Assembly: GCA_027490225.1 (NCBI GenBank)
Contig: JAIXYK010000064.1
Location: 1-44,175, forward strand
Origin: Bacteroidota bacterium
Lineage (GTDB): Bacteria; Bacteroidota; Bacteroidia; M30B66
Direction: 5' to 3'
DNA: 44,175 bases
Of this stretch, positions 1 through 44,175 are shown one piece after another. The position numbers were made by a program, and so were the translations under genes. The notes below the pieces were generated by a model that worked only from the letters and a program-made list of their open reading frames with translations, did not search any database and was not told the origin of the DNA. The stretch's first letter is position 1. Every line of letters starts with the position of its first letter.

Positions 1-234
1 GAAAAAGTCTTGAGCGGGTTTCACAACATGAACTTCGCAACCGTAGCCGTTCGCAGTGATGAAACCGTGCATAGGTTCCCATTCCATTTCGCCCAAGTCG
101 GAATGTACGATTACAACGCGCCCCTTGAAGCCTTGACGCATGATGTACGCGAGCATTGCCTGAGAGTCTTTGCCCCCGGAGTGGTTTACGAAGATTACTT
201 CTGCGTTGTGTGCGGTGGTTAGTGCGTCGTTCAT
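1..234 (-). CDS. PAPS reductase-like protein, 5' part (cut by window edge)
   Basis: The first 78 codons of an adenine-nucleotide alpha-hydrolase / PAPS-reductase family protein read leftward off the window. The start ATG (232-234) is preceded by an AAAGGAACCACTT leader. The PP-loop motif SGGKDSQAM that binds the ATP/PAPS phosphates lies at residues 19-27. The translated product differs from the N-terminus of the complete gene at 43399-44145 at only one of 78 residues (Asn10 here, Gln there), although about 19 of 234 bases differ. This is therefore almost certainly the same locus from a second strain, left at the other end of a circular or redundant map, rather than an independent truncated gene. 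Confidence 0.85.
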   Translation of the reverse strand, partial: MNDALTTAHNAEVIFVNHSGGKDSQAMLAYIMRQGFKGRVVIVHSDLGEMEWEPMHGFITANGYGCEVHVVKPAQDFF

Positions 235-263
235 AAGTGGTTCCTTTCAAGTGTTAAAGTCAA
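1..263. repeat. Imperfect terminal repeat, left copy
   Basis: Positions 1-263 align with 43912-44175 in the same orientation with about 8 percent substitutions and a one-base indel in the leader. The right copy ends exactly at the window end. Most substitutions fall at synonymous codon positions of the PAPS-reductase-like gene. Confidence 0.9.
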
Positions 264-277
264 CGGTCAAGTACAAG

Positions 278-306
278 ATTATATCACGGCGCCCTAGAGT
301 GCAAGC
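278..306 (-). promoter_or_regulatory. Leftward sigma70-like promoter
   Basis: On the minus strand a perfect TATAAT (278-283) lies 15-17 bases downstream of GCTTGCAC (299-306), whose TTGCAC resembles a -35 box. The first gene downstream is the PAPS-reductase-like gene, 44 bases away, so this is the probable start of the long leftward transcription unit. The spacing is slightly short for a classic promoter if TTGCAC is the -35. Confidence 0.5.
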
Positions 307-1146
307 CCCAAGTGAAAATATTTTACAACGCCTTACCGGAGCCGCTTAATCGGGAACACCCGGAACACCCCCAAGCACAACCCCAAGACCGAATTCACAA
401 AGCCCCTCAAGCCCTTACAGGCAAGCCCCGGAGTCTACTATACCGAACGGGCTGGAACCCCTCGCAGTTGCCCAAGGCAGCGCATCTCAGGGGGCGGGAA
501 CGCTTGGGTATGGGGGGGAAGGGGGAACCCGAGAACCAAACGCCTAAGCGCGCTAGGTGTGCCAGGATCTGTAAGGGGCGCAACTCGTGGGAATCATTCA
601 GGATTCTGGAGTATGCAAGGTGCGTGCCGCAACCGAGTTCACTGCGGGCCTCAACTAGACAAGTTCTGTGCCAGAGTCCGGATTATAGAAACTTTTTTTG
701 TTTAGCTGAAAAGTAACCCTTCCGCAAATCTCTACCATTTTTGCCCACTTGACTAATTTGCTTAACTACTCAATCCGTTTTCTATTACCGGGGATTTTCT
801 TATGAGGTAGGGGAGGGGGGCATCACTTTTGCTTCTCAGGCTTCCAATCGGTTCAGATTCGAGCCAGAGGACAGGGAGGGGATTCTAAGATACAATTCTA
901 GAATAGATTGGTGATCCCTTCACCTATCCTCTAACGATTAAGTTCCCATCTTCCAATTCGGACGAGTTCTCACCTTCGTTACAGGGGTAGTCCTAGATTC
1001 CGTTTGCAACGTCTAGGTGTGTTCCCTCGCTCACGCGCTTTAGCCCTGCGGTCTATGAGAAGAACGATTATCTTCTCTGGAGTGCAATCTCCACTTTACC
1101 CGCGACAGACAGGATGTTCCTACCCGAACATATTGTGTTGATTTAA

Positions 1147-1182
1147 AATAAAGAACCGGATACATTGATCCAGTTCTTTATT
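1147..1182. terminator. Long hairpin terminator, both strands
   Basis: An inverted repeat of about 14 paired bases with one mismatch (left arm 1147-1161, loop 1162-1167, right arm 1168-1182) has A-rich and T-rich flanks on opposite sides. It could therefore stop transcription in either direction. It lies just 3' of the structured-RNA hairpins. Confidence 0.7.
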
Positions 1183-1185
1183 TAT

Positions 1186-1199
1186 CACACACACACACA
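1186..1199. repeat. (CA)7 dinucleotide run
   Basis: Seven perfect CA units lie between the two terminators. It looks like a simple sequence run; no function can be inferred. Confidence 0.9.
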
Positions 1200-1209
1200 A
1201 TACCGAAAC

Positions 1210-1256
1210 GAGCGATTGGTTGCAATAACTGATCGCTCTTTTCTTTTGTTTTTTAT
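1210..1256 (+). terminator. Rho-independent terminator
   Basis: GAGCGAT (1210-1216) pairs with ATCGCTC (1232-1238). The stem continues inward with wobble and Watson-Crick pairs to a GCAAT loop and is followed by a long T-rich tail. It stops plus-strand transcripts before the terminase genes, so the latter need their own promoter or read-through. Confidence 0.85.
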
Positions 1257-1302
1257 CTGCGAATTATTTGCATCTATTCGATTAACGGATTAACTTTGTT
1301 TT

Positions 1303-1731
1303 ATGTCAAACTCGAACGTGGCGACGCGTTGGCGCAAAGGAGAATCTGGTAACGCGGGAAACCGCAAAGTGGATCGCGCCGTTCAAGCCTTAAAGAAAAT
1401 GGGAACCCAAGAGCTTGCAGAAACCTGCGAGATGATCTTGAAAGCCAATCGCAAAGAGCTTGCCGCTATTCTGAACGATCCCAATACTTCCATTCTCCAA
1501 GTAAATCTAATATCAGCCATTCTTGCAGATACTCAAAAAGGGTTGACATACACTCTAGATAAGTTACTTGAGCGAGTCGTTGGAAAGCCCAAAGAACGCA
1601 TCGAGCTTTCTGGCGACCCGGATAACCCAATGACCATGCAAGCCGTTCAAGTATTGATCTCGTTGCCGGACAATGGAAGATCAGAACCGTCAACCGTGGT
1701 GTTTGAGCAACCCTCCGAGAAGATTGAATGA
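1303..1731 (+). CDS. Putative terminase small subunit (DUF5681-like)
   Basis: This 142-residue protein lies immediately upstream of TerL and overlaps it by ATGA, the usual position of the small terminase that recognises phage DNA and hands it to the motor. The N-terminal motif RWRKGESGNAGNRK (about residues 9-22) matches the basic WxxGxSGNxxGR motif of DUF5681 proteins, many of which sit in this place. The rest is predicted helical with no clear helix-turn-helix. No good Shine-Dalgarno precedes the ATG. A weak TTGCAT/TAACTT promoter pair lies at about 1267-1296. The function rests mainly on position; the coding status is secure. Confidence 0.75.
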   Translation: MSNSNVATRWRKGESGNAGNRKVDRAVQALKKMGTQELAETCEMILKANRKELAAILNDPNTSILQVNLISAILADTQKGLTYTLDKLLERVVGKPKERIELSGDPDNPMTMQAVQVLISLPDNGRSEPSTVVFEQPSEKIE

Positions 1732-3092
1732 GCGCCGCGCCCAAAGCGAATAAAGTTTTATCTCCTCAGCCCGGTCCCCAATTACAATTCTTATCCACCA
1801 AAGCCGACATTGCCATATATGGCGGAGCCGCCGGAGCGGGTAAATCTTTTGCCCTGCTCTTGGAACCACTGCGACACTTCCACAATCCCCGTTTTGGGGG
1901 CGTTATCTTCAGACGTACTTCCGTTCAAGTTCGGAACCAAGGAGGGCTGTGGGACGAATCTGCGGACATATACACCCCATTGGGAGCTGTACCCCGGCAA
2001 TCCTACTTGGAATGGCTATTCCCGTCCGGCGGTAAGCTCAAGTTCGCGCACCTTGAGACCGAACAAAACATCTATGACTGGCAAGGCGCCCAAATCGCGT
2101 TCATCGGGTTTGACGAAGTTACCCATTTCACCGAAAAGCAGTTTTTCTATATGCTCTCCCGGAACCGATCCATGTCCGGTATCCCCGGATACGTTCGCGC
2201 TACCTGTAACCCAGATACCGACTCTTGGGTCAGGCGGTTCATTGATTGGTGGATCGACGAACACGGATACCCAATCCCCGAGCGATCCGGAGTCCTGCGA
2301 TACTTTATCCGAGTCGAAGATGAGATCCGTTGGGGAAGCTCACGCCAAGAGCTTATGGATAAATACGGCGCAGACGTTTTACCAAAATCCGTTACCTTTA
2401 TCCCCGGAAAGATTTACGACAACCAACTACTCCTCGAAAAAGATCCCTCGTATTTGTCTTCACTGAAAGCTCTATCCCGAGTTGAACGCGCTCGACTCCT
2501 CGAAGGGAATTGGAACGTGCGCTCCGCCGCGGGACAATACTTTCAGCGCACTTGGTTTGAAGTAATTGAAGCCCTGCCCGCTCGCCCAATCATGACCATT
2601 CGATATTGGGACCGCGCCGCAACCAAGCCCTCCGAAACAAACCGAGATCCGGATTATACCGTCGGATTAAAACTGCACCGATACGAGGACGGTACTTGGG
2701 TAGTCGCAGACGTTGTGCGAGTCCGTGAATCCCCTCTTAACGTGGAACGAATAGTGCGGAATACCGCTACCCAAGACGGGTTCGGATGCCTCGTTGCAAT
2801 TGAACAAGATCCCGGCTCTGCGGGTGTCGCAGATGCTGATAACTATGTGCGGCTCTTGGCAGGATTCAATATCCGAGTCCGTAAACCCGCTAAAGACAAA
2901 GTAACCCGCGCACTCCCCGTATCCGCCCAATGTGAACACGGGAACATTAAAATTCTCAAAGCCTCATGGAATGATTCTTTTTTAAATGAACTGGAAAATT
3001 TTCCCGATGCAAGCCATGATGACCAAGTAGACGCATTTTCGGGAGCTTTTAACGAACTAGCGACGGGGTATTCAATCCTCGATGTGTTATAG
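1728..3092 (+). CDS. terL: Terminase large subunit
   Basis: ATP-driven packaging motor and DNA-cutting nuclease, 454 residues, a normal length. The Walker A motif GGAAGAGKS lies near residues 32-40. A Walker B-like segment, IAFIGFDEVTHF, lies near 120-131, with the acidic pair DE. The C-terminal RNase H-like nuclease starts with IRYWDRAAT (about 290-298, first metal-binding Asp) and ends with the HDDQVDAFSGAF motif (about 431-442). The ATG overlaps the stop of the preceding gene (ATGA), with GAGAAG as ribosome-binding site. It packages DNA into the prohead through the portal encoded next. Confidence 0.96.
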   Translation: MSAAPKANKVLSPQPGPQLQFLSTKADIAIYGGAAGAGKSFALLLEPLRHFHNPRFGGVIFRRTSVQVRNQGGLWDESADIYTPLGAVPRQSYLEWLFPSGGKLKFAHLETEQNIYDWQGAQIAFIGFDEVTHFTEKQFFYMLSRNRSMSGIPGYVRATCNPDTDSWVRRFIDWWIDEHGYPIPERSGVLRYFIRVEDEIRWGSSRQELMDKYGADVLPKSVTFIPGKIYDNQLLLEKDPSYLSSLKALSRVERARLLEGNWNVRSAAGQYFQRTWFEVIEALPARPIMTIRYWDRAATKPSETNRDPDYTVGLKLHRYEDGTWVVADVVRVRESPLNVERIVRNTATQDGFGCLVAIEQDPGSAGVADADNYVRLLAGFNIRVRKPAKDKVTRALPVSAQCEHGNIKILKASWNDSFLNELENFPDASHDDQVDAFSGAFNELATGYSILDVL

Positions 3093-3100
3093 GGAGAGGT

Positions 3101-5077
3101 ATGAAAAACAAAAAGCCGACAGCGGCAAAAAAACCAAAGATTGTAAAAAACACCAAAGAGCGAGTTCCGTTCCCGAACTCCGTTTCTAACGGGTTGTCCG
3201 AAGCCATCATGGGGTTTACTCCGGGCGGGATTGGCACGCAACTTGACCAAGTAGATACAACCTTTATCAACAACCGTTGGTATCTTGTTTCCAATATGCG
3301 GCAACTCCTCTCCGAGTTGTACGCAGAACACGGACTCATTCAAACCGTTGTTGGCGTCCCGGTCGATGATGGACTTCGCGGCGGCGTTGAAATCAAGACC
3401 AAGCAACTCTCCGAAGATGAGTTGTCGGAACTCATGAACTGCATTGACCGAAACGACGATATTAACACCGTCGGGCAAGCGCTTAAGTGGAACCGCCTGT
3501 ATGGTGGCGCGGGCGTTGTGGTGATTACTGACCAAGACCCAATGACTCCACTCGTAACAACCGCAATCACAAAAGATACCCCACTTGAGTTTCGCGCAGT
3601 CGATATGTGGGAATTGTTTTGGGATAAACAAAACACCGAATCGTATGATCCAAGTTTGCAAGAAACAAAATTCGAGTATTACGCGTATTACGGAACCAAA
3701 CTCCACAAATCCCGCGTATTCCGCATGAAAGGTATCCAACCGCCATCCTTCATCCGCCCACGACTTCGAGGTTGGGGATTGTCAGTTGTGGAATCCTTGA
3801 TCCGCTCAATTAACCAATACTTCAAGACCAACGATCTTTGCTTTGAAGTCCTAGACGAGTTCAAGCTCGATATTTTCAAGATTAAGAACCTGACAACCAC
3901 GTTGCTATCCTCCCAAGGGACGCAACAAATCCAACAGCGCGTGCAACTGGCAAACCAACAAAAGAACTACCAAAACGCGATTACGATGGATTCCGAAGAC
4001 GACTACGTTCAAAAGCAGTTGTCCTTCTCCGGGATTGCGGAAATCTTAGAACAGATCCGGATTCAGATTGCATCCGATCTTCGTATGCCGATCACCAAGA
4101 TTTTTGGGATCAGCGCCTCCGGATTTAACTCCGGCGAAGACGATATTGAAAACTACAACGCCATGATCGAGTCGGAGATTCGGTCAAAGTGTAAGTATGA
4201 CATTTTGAAAGTGGTTGAGATTCGTTGCCAACAGTTGTTTGGGTTTGTGCCAAATGACATCTCGGTAACATTCAAGCCGCTTAGAACTCTATCGGGTGAA
4301 CAGGAGCAAAACGTAAAAACCCAAAAGTTTAACCGCTTGATCGCGGCTCGCCAAAGCGGGGAGATGGATTCAGTGGAGTTCCGGAAAGCCTGTAACAAAG
4401 ACGATTTGTTGCCGCTTAAGCTCGAAGACAAAGACCTTATGGTTGGCGATTACGACGAGGATTCCGCGCACGATGGTAGCGATCAGATTCCCGGACAACA
4501 GAAATCATACTCTCGCGCCGCAACCTTGGAGTCCGAAAAGCGATACGAGCGCAAACTGAACTACTTTAAAGAATCGGATAATATCAAAATCCCATTCGAG
4601 AAGGAAAAACACCCACGCGATAAAGATGGCGTATTTCGGACCGCGGGGAAAACCTCGAAAGAAGTAAAAGAACGCGAGCAGTACGAGCGCAGAAAAGAAA
4701 AGATCGAGGATAACGAGCGCCTGTTTGTCGTTCTTTGGAAGCAAACCGACGAGGGCGATAAGGCGATCTTGGTGAAGAAGCTCACCCCGGCGGCGCGTGA
4801 CCGTATAAAGGATCATTTCGGTAAAGGGTACTTGGTTGAAAGCTATTCCGAAAGCCCAAGCGTTGAAGAGGGGCAGATTCGCAAACACCAAAACGATATT
4901 ATTCCAGAGGACGCGGAAACCGTGTTGCCACACATCACCGAAACCGCAATTCAAAATCCGGGGGGAGTTGACGAGGAAGCATGGGAAAAAGCAAAAGAAG
5001 AGTGCGTAAAAACCTACGGAAAATTAAAGTATCCGGTAGTAATGACGATTTACAAAAAAATGAAAGGAATCGAATAA
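3101..5077 (+). CDS. Portal protein (DUF1073-like) with C-terminal extension
   Basis: Dodecameric vertex channel through which DNA enters and leaves, 658 residues. The first ~450 residues fit the DUF1073/anti-CBASS-like portal family: an early LSELYAEHGLIQTVVGVPVDDGLRGG segment, GWGLSVVESL, and the DLRMPITKIFGISASGFNSGEDDIENYNA stretch near residues 325-355. Beyond about residue 500 there is a basic HPRDKDGVFRTAG motif, typical of phage head-processing proteins. The last ~35 residues (EAWEKAKEECVKTYG...YPVVMTIYKKM) resemble the short ChaB-like tail module seen on phage head proteins. A strong GGGAGAGG site precedes the ATG. The extension makes it about 150 residues longer than a plain portal. 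Confidence 0.9.
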   Translation: MKNKKPTAAKKPKIVKNTKERVPFPNSVSNGLSEAIMGFTPGGIGTQLDQVDTTFINNRWYLVSNMRQLLSELYAEHGLIQTVVGVPVDDGLRGGVEIKTKQLSEDELSELMNCIDRNDDINTVGQALKWNRLYGGAGVVVITDQDPMTPLVTTAITKDTPLEFRAVDMWELFWDKQNTESYDPSLQETKFEYYAYYGTKLHKSRVFRMKGIQPPSFIRPRLRGWGLSVVESLIRSINQYFKTNDLCFEVLDEFKLDIFKIKNLTTTLLSSQGTQQIQQRVQLANQQKNYQNAITMDSEDDYVQKQLSFSGIAEILEQIRIQIASDLRMPITKIFGISASGFNSGEDDIENYNAMIESEIRSKCKYDILKVVEIRCQQLFGFVPNDISVTFKPLRTLSGEQEQNVKTQKFNRLIAARQSGEMDSVEFRKACNKDDLLPLKLEDKDLMVGDYDEDSAHDGSDQIPGQQKSYSRAATLESEKRYERKLNYFKESDNIKIPFEKEKHPRDKDGVFRTAGKTSKEVKEREQYERRKEKIEDNERLFVVLWKQTDEGDKAILVKKLTPAARDRIKDHFGKGYLVESYSESPSVEEGQIRKHQNDIIPEDAETVLPHITETAIQNPGGVDEEAWEKAKEECVKTYGKLKYPVVMTIYKKMKGIE

Positions 5078-33730: not shown

Positions 33731-33731
33731 C

Positions 33732-33812
33732 GGGAGGGTAGCTCAGGGGCAGAGCGGACACAATTGGTGCGCGCCCAATCGGTCGTCGTTGGTTCGATTC
33801 CAACCCCTCCCG
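33732..33812 (+). tRNA. tRNA-like gene with abnormal anticodon arm
   Basis: Acceptor GGGAGGG (33732-33738) pairs with CCCTCCC (33805-33811), TA at positions 8-9, D arm GCTC/GAGC (33741-33744, 33752-33755), and a textbook T arm GTTGG-TTCGATT-CCAAC (33788-33804). Between D and T arms there are 32 bases instead of the usual ~23. The best hairpin is ATTGG/CCAAT (33763-33767, 33775-33779) with loop TGCGCGC, flanked by a GAC/GTC pair. The loop lacks T at position 33 in standard register, so no anticodon is assigned. CCA is not encoded. It may be a modified tRNA, a decaying one, or an attachment-site-like copy. Confidence 0.6.
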
Positions 33813-33814
33813 CC

Positions 33815-34552
33815 CTATAACGGGAAGAACACCGGGCAGCGCCCGTAATCGAAGATCACCACGCATCCAATCTGCGGCTTGATCCGGTTGTACTTTTCGT
33901 ACTTGAAGGCAAACGCGTCGTTGTCGATCAGGCTTCCGGAATTGCAAGACCACATACGAGCGCCGCCGTTTGTTTGAATCCAATTCACCCCGGCATGGGA
34001 ATGGAGATGCCCCATGATCGTGCTTATTTGCCCATCTAGGGCGGCGTTGCGATGCCCGAGGATTCCGCTGTAGCCCATTCCGTGAATCATTCTAAACGGC
34101 ATTTTAAGCCCCGTAGAGAACCGCCATTCCTCTTTGTGAACCCACCCCTCCGGGAGCTTAAAGATTTCGTTGTACGCTTTAAGAACGTGGGACGGGATTG
34201 CCGCCTCGCTTGCCTTTTTAACCCAACGCAACCCGTGATTGGAGATGGCGAGTTTCATGATTGGGAACTTGCGCCTCCACATATCAACTTTTGATCTCAC
34301 CAAGGCAAACTCGTTCACTGCGGAGTCCGGGGCGTCCGGATCTTTTGGGTACGCCGAGCCGTGAAAGTTGTCGATCTCATCGCCTACATTCAGAATGTTT
34401 TCGTCGGGTATGTCAAACCTTTGGCGGAGTGAATAACAAAACTGTAAAGCGTTTTTGTGTTCGTAGGGTAGTTGAAGATCCGAGATAACCAAGATTGGCT
34501 TATCCGGAACAAGATTTGGCGCGTTTACTTTTTCGTCAACCAAACGCAACAT
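33815..34552 (-). CDS. Calcineurin-like metallophosphoesterase
   Basis: 245 residues. Metal-binding motifs ILVISDLQLPY (~20-30), LNVGDEIDNFHG (~54-65), LAISNHGLRW and STIMGHLHSHAG. The first motif has Gln in place of the usual His (D-x-Q rather than D-x-H), a variation that may alter the metal site. The family hydrolyses phosphodiesters, nucleotides or protein phosphates; the substrate is unknown. It lies convergent to the endolysin/tRNA-like end and divergent from the HExxH gene. Confidence 0.85.
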   Translation of the reverse strand: MLRLVDEKVNAPNLVPDKPILVISDLQLPYEHKNALQFCYSLRQRFDIPDENILNVGDEIDNFHGSAYPKDPDAPDSAVNEFALVRSKVDMWRRKFPIMKLAISNHGLRWVKKASEAAIPSHVLKAYNEIFKLPEGWVHKEEWRFSTGLKMPFRMIHGMGYSGILGHRNAALDGQISTIMGHLHSHAGVNWIQTNGGARMWSCNSGSLIDNDAFAFKYEKYNRIKPQIGCVVIFDYGRCPVFFPL

Positions 34553-43398: not shown

Positions 43399-44145
43399 CT
43401 AGCAGAAAGTCTCGTCAAGATACTTGGGCAACTTTACGCCGTTCACTTGCTTCAAGCGGATTGTCTTGCCCAAGTCGCGTTCGAGCTTCGCGAGCTTTGC
43501 GAACAACTCGGGGCGCATCTCTTTTGCCATGCGATGCTCTTCAACGCGACCGAACACGCAGAACACGCACGACAACCGGGAGAACCCCTTCGAGTAAATC
43601 TCGTGCGGTTGTTGCCCGGCTTTCTTGATTTCAAACCATACATCGCCCAAGGTGTAATTGAAGATTGGGAACCACTCCCAAACCTGCACACCGTCGCGCT
43701 TGGTGGACAACTTCGCGGACAAGGTGAACGGGTTCTTTTTCGCGCGGCTTGGGGACTCCTCAGCGCGGATACCGATAGCGTTGATCGCGCGGGTGAACCC
43801 GTGGGCTTTCATGTACGCCTTGATGAACCGGGCAATGGGGGCGGTCTTGAGTTCTGAGGTGCAGAACCGTGCCATACCCGAAGGGAGGCGATTGAAGCGG
43901 CGGCAAAGCTCGAAAAAGTCTTGAGCGGGTTTCACGACATGGACTTCGCAACCGTAGCCGTTCGCAGTGATGAAACCGTGCATCGGTTCCCACTCCATCT
44001 CGCCCAAGTCGGAGTGAACGATAACGACGCGCCCTTTGAAGCCTTGGCGCATGATGTACGCGAGCATGGCTTGGGAGTCTTTGCCCCCGGAGTGGTTTAC
44101 GAAGATTACTTCGGCTTGGTGGGCGGTGGTCAGTGCGTCGTTCAT
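43399..44145 (-). CDS. PAPS reductase / adenine nucleotide alpha-hydrolase family protein
   Basis: 248 residues from ATG 44145, leader AAAAGGAACCACTT (an upstream TTG at the edge is open but lacks the leader position). PP-loop SGGKDSQAMLAY (19-30), LGEMEWEPMHGF, then MARFCTSELKTAPIARFIK near 98-116, GIRAEESPSRA near 134-144 and the C-terminal RLSCVFCVFG Cys pair. Phage members of this family are linked to nucleotide or DNA sulfur/thio-type chemistry rather than sulfate assimilation; the real substrate is unknown. First gene of the leftward unit driven from the 278-306 promoter when the map is closed. Confidence 0.88.
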   Translation of the reverse strand: MNDALTTAHQAEVIFVNHSGGKDSQAMLAYIMRQGFKGRVVIVHSDLGEMEWEPMHGFITANGYGCEVHVVKPAQDFFELCRRFNRLPSGMARFCTSELKTAPIARFIKAYMKAHGFTRAINAIGIRAEESPSRAKKNPFTLSAKLSTKRDGVQVWEWFPIFNYTLGDVWFEIKKAGQQPHEIYSKGFSRLSCVFCVFGRVEEHRMAKEMRPELFAKLAKLERDLGKTIRLKQVNGVKLPKYLDETFC

Positions 44146-44175
44146 AAGTGGTTCCTTTTCAGTGGTTAAAGTCAA
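43912..44175. repeat. Imperfect terminal repeat, right copy
   Basis: Aligns with 1-263 in the same orientation, about 8 percent divergence. See the left copy. Confidence 0.9.

Follow-up and report, generated by a model that had tools for sequence, protein, structure and literature searches.

What lies in the roughly 0.8 kb that separates the leftward genes of this phage from its rightward terS/terL module, a segment that holds no credible protein? The window (the whole stretch of 44,175 nucleotides analysed here, contig 54 of its assembly) comes from a tailed phage with a contractile tail. Rightward genes run from 1303 in the order terS-like, terL, portal, head morphogenesis and major head protein, and a tail sheath gene lies further downstream; the leftward genes lie to the left of the element, and those at the far end of the contig include RecT, a YqaJ recombinase and a PAPS reductase-like protein. 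The earlier note had placed about 800 bases without a credible protein between two transcription directions and had read them as a large structured phage RNA, and both the frames and the gene directions agree with the first part of that description. The open reading frame at 312-716 was rejected as a gene (no Pfam match and no conservation in the related phage introduced below). We put the probability that this segment encodes a large (about 0.7-0.8 kb) structured noncoding phage RNA, probably acting in trans in the manner of GOLLD and ROOL, at roughly 0.55.

Several features of the contig are recorded here in their own right. Its two ends (1-270 and about 43900-44175) carry near-identical but non-identical copies of the start of the PAPS reductase-like gene. 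It looks as though two strain variants had gone into the assembly of a genome of about 44 kb that is circular or terminally redundant; the alternative is a partial duplication. ARAGORN finds a single tRNA-Asn-like gene (anticodon ATT, 33731-33815). Clear GGAG Shine-Dalgarno motifs precede many gene starts (for example 7913, 8405, 10812, 11538 and 20113), whereas genes of Bacteroidia, the class to which the assembly seems to belong judging by the sequences of class members, usually lack such motifs, and given this difference the phage contig may have been misbinned.

A terminase search of IMG/VR recovered one phage, here called L003, whose TerL is 92% identical and which carries the same element at the same place. 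The core of the element (840-1131) is 94% identical between the two phages, whereas nucleotide identity is 71% in terS and 80% in terL. Indels relative to L003 of 2, 1 and 1 bases exclude a protein in the core, and none of the reading frames of the window extends across it. Conservation is uneven elsewhere, with 53% identity in 660-719, 51% in 766-839, 48% in 1132-1204 and 81% in the terminator (1205-1246). The parts of the element are listed in Table 1. A covariance model of the 5' domain (R2) matches the window and L003, and weakly a second relative, L071, at 3841-3986. The extent of 450-1245 given in the earlier note holds from near 578, where the conserved part begins; 450-577 is not conserved in L003. 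There, some 130-140 nt lie between a weak promoter-like hexamer and the conserved block, and a TACTAT hexamer lies similarly far upstream in the window. A promoter for the RNA was not identifiable by promoter scan, as candidate sites in the window and L003 occur at chance level. Further upstream, the element is bordered by a block that is 82% identical over 51 bases to L003 3431-3481. Its promoter-like hexamers on the minus strand (TTGCAC 299-304, a 15-nt spacer and TATAAT 278-283) would serve the leftward genes.

Table 1. Features of the element and its borders, in window coordinates. Alifold helices were picked with both sequences (window and L003) in view.
Feature	Position	Strand	Basis or comment
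Conserved block with leftward promoter-like sequence; upstream border of the element	275..324	-	blastn, L003
Putative variable 5' extension of the RNA	442..577	+	Length similar in L003, sequence not conserved
5' domain	578..765	+	Alifold helices; 65% identity in 578-659, 85% in 720-765
Hairpin in 5' domain	613-616/622-625	+	Alifold
GCCGCA, able to pair with 1047-1052	626-631	+	Alifold
Hairpin in 5' domain	724-728/740-744	+	Alifold
Invariant motif CCACTTGACTAAT	about 745-757	+	In 5' domain
Hairpin	809..836	+	Both sides changed at 818/827 and 819/826; several one-sided pair-keeping changes
Conserved core of the RNA	840..1131	+	94% identity to L003; four compensatory pairs
Stem 866-871/927-932 around 875-881/915-921, 882-886/900-904, 888-890/897-899	866..932	+	
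Stacked-helix arm: 963-966/1026-1029, 971-975/1015-1019, 977-980/1008-1011, 982-985/1003-1006	963..1029	+	
Hairpin GAGAAGA-ACGAUUA-UCUUCUC	1057..1077	+	Compensatory A-U to G-C at 1058/1076
Hairpin UGGAG-UGCAAU-CUCCA	1078..1093	+	Compensatory A-U to G-C at 1081/1090
Invariant inter-hairpin linker CUUUACCCGCGACAGACAGG	1094..1113	+	
Hairpin AUGUUC-CUACCC-GAACAU	1114..1131	+	Compensatory U-A to C-G at 1117/1128
Long AT-rich hairpin	1146..1183	+	Position, not sequence, common to L003
Intrinsic terminator, RNA 3' end	1205..1246	+	Hairpin 1210-1238 and T-rich tail
Conserved promoter-like stretch	1247..1302	+	TTTG 1267-1270, 20 nt, TAACTTTG 1291-1298
terS (small terminase-like)	1303..1731	+	Position and likeness to genes at the terS position in relatives; phrog_15125 (unknown function)
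terL (terminase large subunit)	1728..3092	+	phrog_979, 3e-169

The pattern of substitution within the core is that of a paired RNA. Eight of its 18 substitutions relative to L003 make up four compensatory pairs (985/1003, 1058/1076, 1081/1090 and 1117/1128), against a mean of 0.18 (P<=5e-5) when the substitutions are reshuffled over a structure folded from the window alone. In an alignment of 950-1131, all 35 listed pairs are paired in both sequences, and sliding the partners by 1-3 columns leaves no double changes; the shuffle control on the same alignment returned 34/500 and is weak with two sequences. The stem at 866..932 is almost invariant, with one pair-keeping change (876), and the arm at 963..1029 has one double change (985/1003) and two single changes that keep pairing. 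Outside the core, the hairpin at 809..836 has double changes at 818/827 and 819/826. The terminator has another (1211/1237) together with three one-sided changes, and its 13-bp stem stays paired in L003. One-sided changes at 854, 876, 963, 972, 1215, 1217 and 1238 retain pairing on the plus strand by way of G-U. The antisense fold has the same main hairpins, so the assignment to the plus strand is made mainly on these G-U-type changes and on the T-tailed terminator.

Folding energy adds less to the case. The many local stems described in the earlier note are present, and 450-1245 folds better than shuffled sequences (z -5.5). This score is carried mostly by the two ends, because 578-1140 alone reaches only z -1.5 and 6 of 100 shuffles fold equally well; the element of L003 scores z -2.3. 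Two multi-helix junctions had been proposed, and they fared differently: at 866-932 the outer stem encloses 875-921 in both phages, and at 582-639 the stem breaks in L003 with the loss of 3 of 7 pairs. Conservation and covariation, not folding energy, thus make the case, and on comparison of the two loci the segment is judged to be a real conserved structured RNA rather than a chance set of hairpins. The large structured phage RNA of the earlier note is upheld, since the noncoding sequence is better conserved than the genes on either side and covaries significantly; the covariation was seen in the kind of homologous locus in which that note had proposed to look for it.

Homologues were sought by motif scans of IMG/VR and GTDB contigs, by terminase and TerS protein scans, by BLAST of phage and plasmid records, and by BLAST or covariance models on two draws of 395 related genomes. 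Among the matches listed, none of these sources gave a clear homologue beyond L003. The nearest relative after L003 among the terminase matches listed is L071 (TerL 73%), which has a 925-nt noncoding gap (3190-4116) at the corresponding place. Its match to the 5'-domain model is weak (E 0.21 overall, 7e-4 within the syntenic gap), the 3' core has no detectable match there, and a chain alignment with the element is not significant in a shuffled-alignment test; on its weak 5'-domain match, L071 is a possible homologue only. A further phage, L075 (TerL 61%), has motifs alike by eye and was rejected, as neither the shuffled-alignment test nor the covariance model was supportive. It nonetheless holds about 0.8 kb of structured noncoding sequence of its own between TerS and TerL (963-1755, z -3.6), where GCCGCA comes after an AUGCC-ACUA-GGUAU hairpin, as it does in the window, and this gap could be another large RNA. 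The remaining candidates were set aside: three exact 17-18-mer pattern matches in IMG/VR (coding or G+C-rich chance matches), two BLAST matches of 38-41 bases in class genomes (chance), four weak model matches in related genomes whose numbers fit chance (two of them inside reading frames), and six loci sharing a single 16-mer each and lacking a model match.

The 3' border bears on whether the RNA is a unit of its own. Of the two consecutive terminators claimed in the earlier note, the hairpin at 1210-1238 with its T-rich tail stands as the sole plus-strand terminator that passes the scan; the hairpin at 1146-1183 was not scored as a terminator and its sequence is not conserved, the counterpart in L003 being an unrelated inverted repeat (4325-4338/4371-4384). 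Beyond the terminator, TTTG-N20-TAACTTTG is present in both phages and ends 4 bases upstream of the terS ATG, and terS lacks a Shine-Dalgarno motif, although many other genes of the phage have one. This arrangement points to a promoter belonging to terS itself, with a leaderless start. Since the conserved promoter-like sequence is placed after the terminator and right at terS, the RNA probably forms a separate transcription unit.

The same border would be read differently if the element were a cis-acting leader of the late operon, whose fold lets polymerase pass the terminator by antitermination, as in lambda Q/6S or HK022 put. A leader between promoter and terminator is typical of lambda-like late operons, and the lambda late leader (6S RNA) and the HK022 put RNA are small noncoding leaders that end in a terminator before phage genes. 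The element shares these properties, being noncoding and closed by a terminator, with the packaging genes following immediately on the strand from which it is read. We consider this explanation rather unlikely, however, since the known leaders are far smaller, the promoter-like sequence (1267-1298) comes after the terminator and abuts the region of the terS ATG, and L071 retains terS and terL although no 3' core is detectable there.

A position beside terS is common for packaging sites, and the conserved element adjoins terS/terL; it might therefore be a pac or cos site, with its conservation due to terminase binding and its hairpins serving as protein-binding inverted repeats. That, too, is unlikely, and slightly more so than a leader, given that compensatory changes preserve pairing in several separate hairpins, that the one-sided changes are of the G-U type tolerated only by RNA, and that a covarying transcription terminator closes the unit. 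An RNA encoded near packaging functions has a precedent in the phi29 pRNA, which is known from phi29-like phages; that RNA is about 174 nt long, however, and the phage of the window has a tail sheath and a phrog_979-type terminase, and the element gives no Rfam match.

The comparison to be weighed most closely is with GOLLD and ROOL, two phage RNAs whose function is unknown; they form cages made of RNA alone and often occur near tRNA islands (PMC12286853). GOLLD has a conserved 3' part and a less conserved 5' part, and ROOL is a large, complexly folded phage RNA for which no protein partner is known (PMC12286853). The window RNA resembles GOLLD in size, phage origin and the conserved-3'/variable-5' pattern, and ROOL in being a large phage RNA. 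Unlike GOLLD, often near a tRNA island, it adjoins terminase genes, and unlike ROOL it is not beside tRNAs. Neither covariance model matches it: GOLLD (RF02032) gave no match at E<=10 in window positions 200-1320, nor at E<=1 in the records of L003 and L071, and with permissive filters ROOL (RF03087) likewise matched none of the window, L003 and L071. Against the assembly that contains the window, the GOLLD model produced only a 13-bit chance match, on another contig; 14 control genomes gave no GOLLD or ROOL match either, so that the whole-record searches stand without a positive control. Across all 4227 families of Rfam 15 there was no credible match in the window, L003 or L071. Matches to ncr1015, NrrF and Yfr10 were rejected as far under their gathering scores; they sit on the 3' hairpins.

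The element could still belong distantly to GOLLD or ROOL and escape the Rfam models, as its similar size, phage origin and conserved 3' and variable 5' parts would allow, but with no match to either model under permissive filters in any of the three phages, and the only tRNA of the contig about 32 kb away, we regard this as very improbable. The earlier note had left the choice between a new class and distant membership open, and had named a search with these two models as its check. With that search negative, the new class appears the better option, on two good sequences and one weak. That the segment is a noncoding spacer with chance hairpins is scarcely credible: taken by itself the core folds with an energy close to that of shuffles, but conservation above that of coding genes and the covariation test contradict it.

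Our best reading is accordingly that the locus encodes a candidate for a rare, new class of large phage noncoding RNA, not a detectable member of GOLLD or ROOL. The RNA would be read from the plus strand as a variable 5' end, a 5' domain and a highly conserved 3' core closed by its own intrinsic terminator. It would be transcribed independently, with the late packaging and structural operon beginning just downstream from an apparently separate promoter. Folded into a fixed three-dimensional object, it would act in trans and, by analogy with the phage RNAs GOLLD and ROOL, may self-assemble or bind protein during infection. GOLLD is a 14-mer RNA nanocage whose expression goes up at lysis, and ROOL an RNA-only nanocage with a very abundant transcript. 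More tentatively, the class may be a narrow and so far unrecognised one of giant phage RNAs, with a separate fold that arose independently of GOLLD and ROOL, which assembles a large RNA particle or serves the packaging or late stage whose genes it adjoins.

The importance of such an RNA is set by the context of GOLLD and ROOL, whose RNA-only cages have no assigned function. If the reading is correct, an unrelated RNA of GOLLD/ROOL size in a different phage lineage, next to the terminase genes, would suggest that such objects evolved more than once, and the phage would offer a new system in which to ask genetically what large phage RNAs do. Catalogues of RNA families lack rare RNAs known from only one or two sequences, and this one would be among them.
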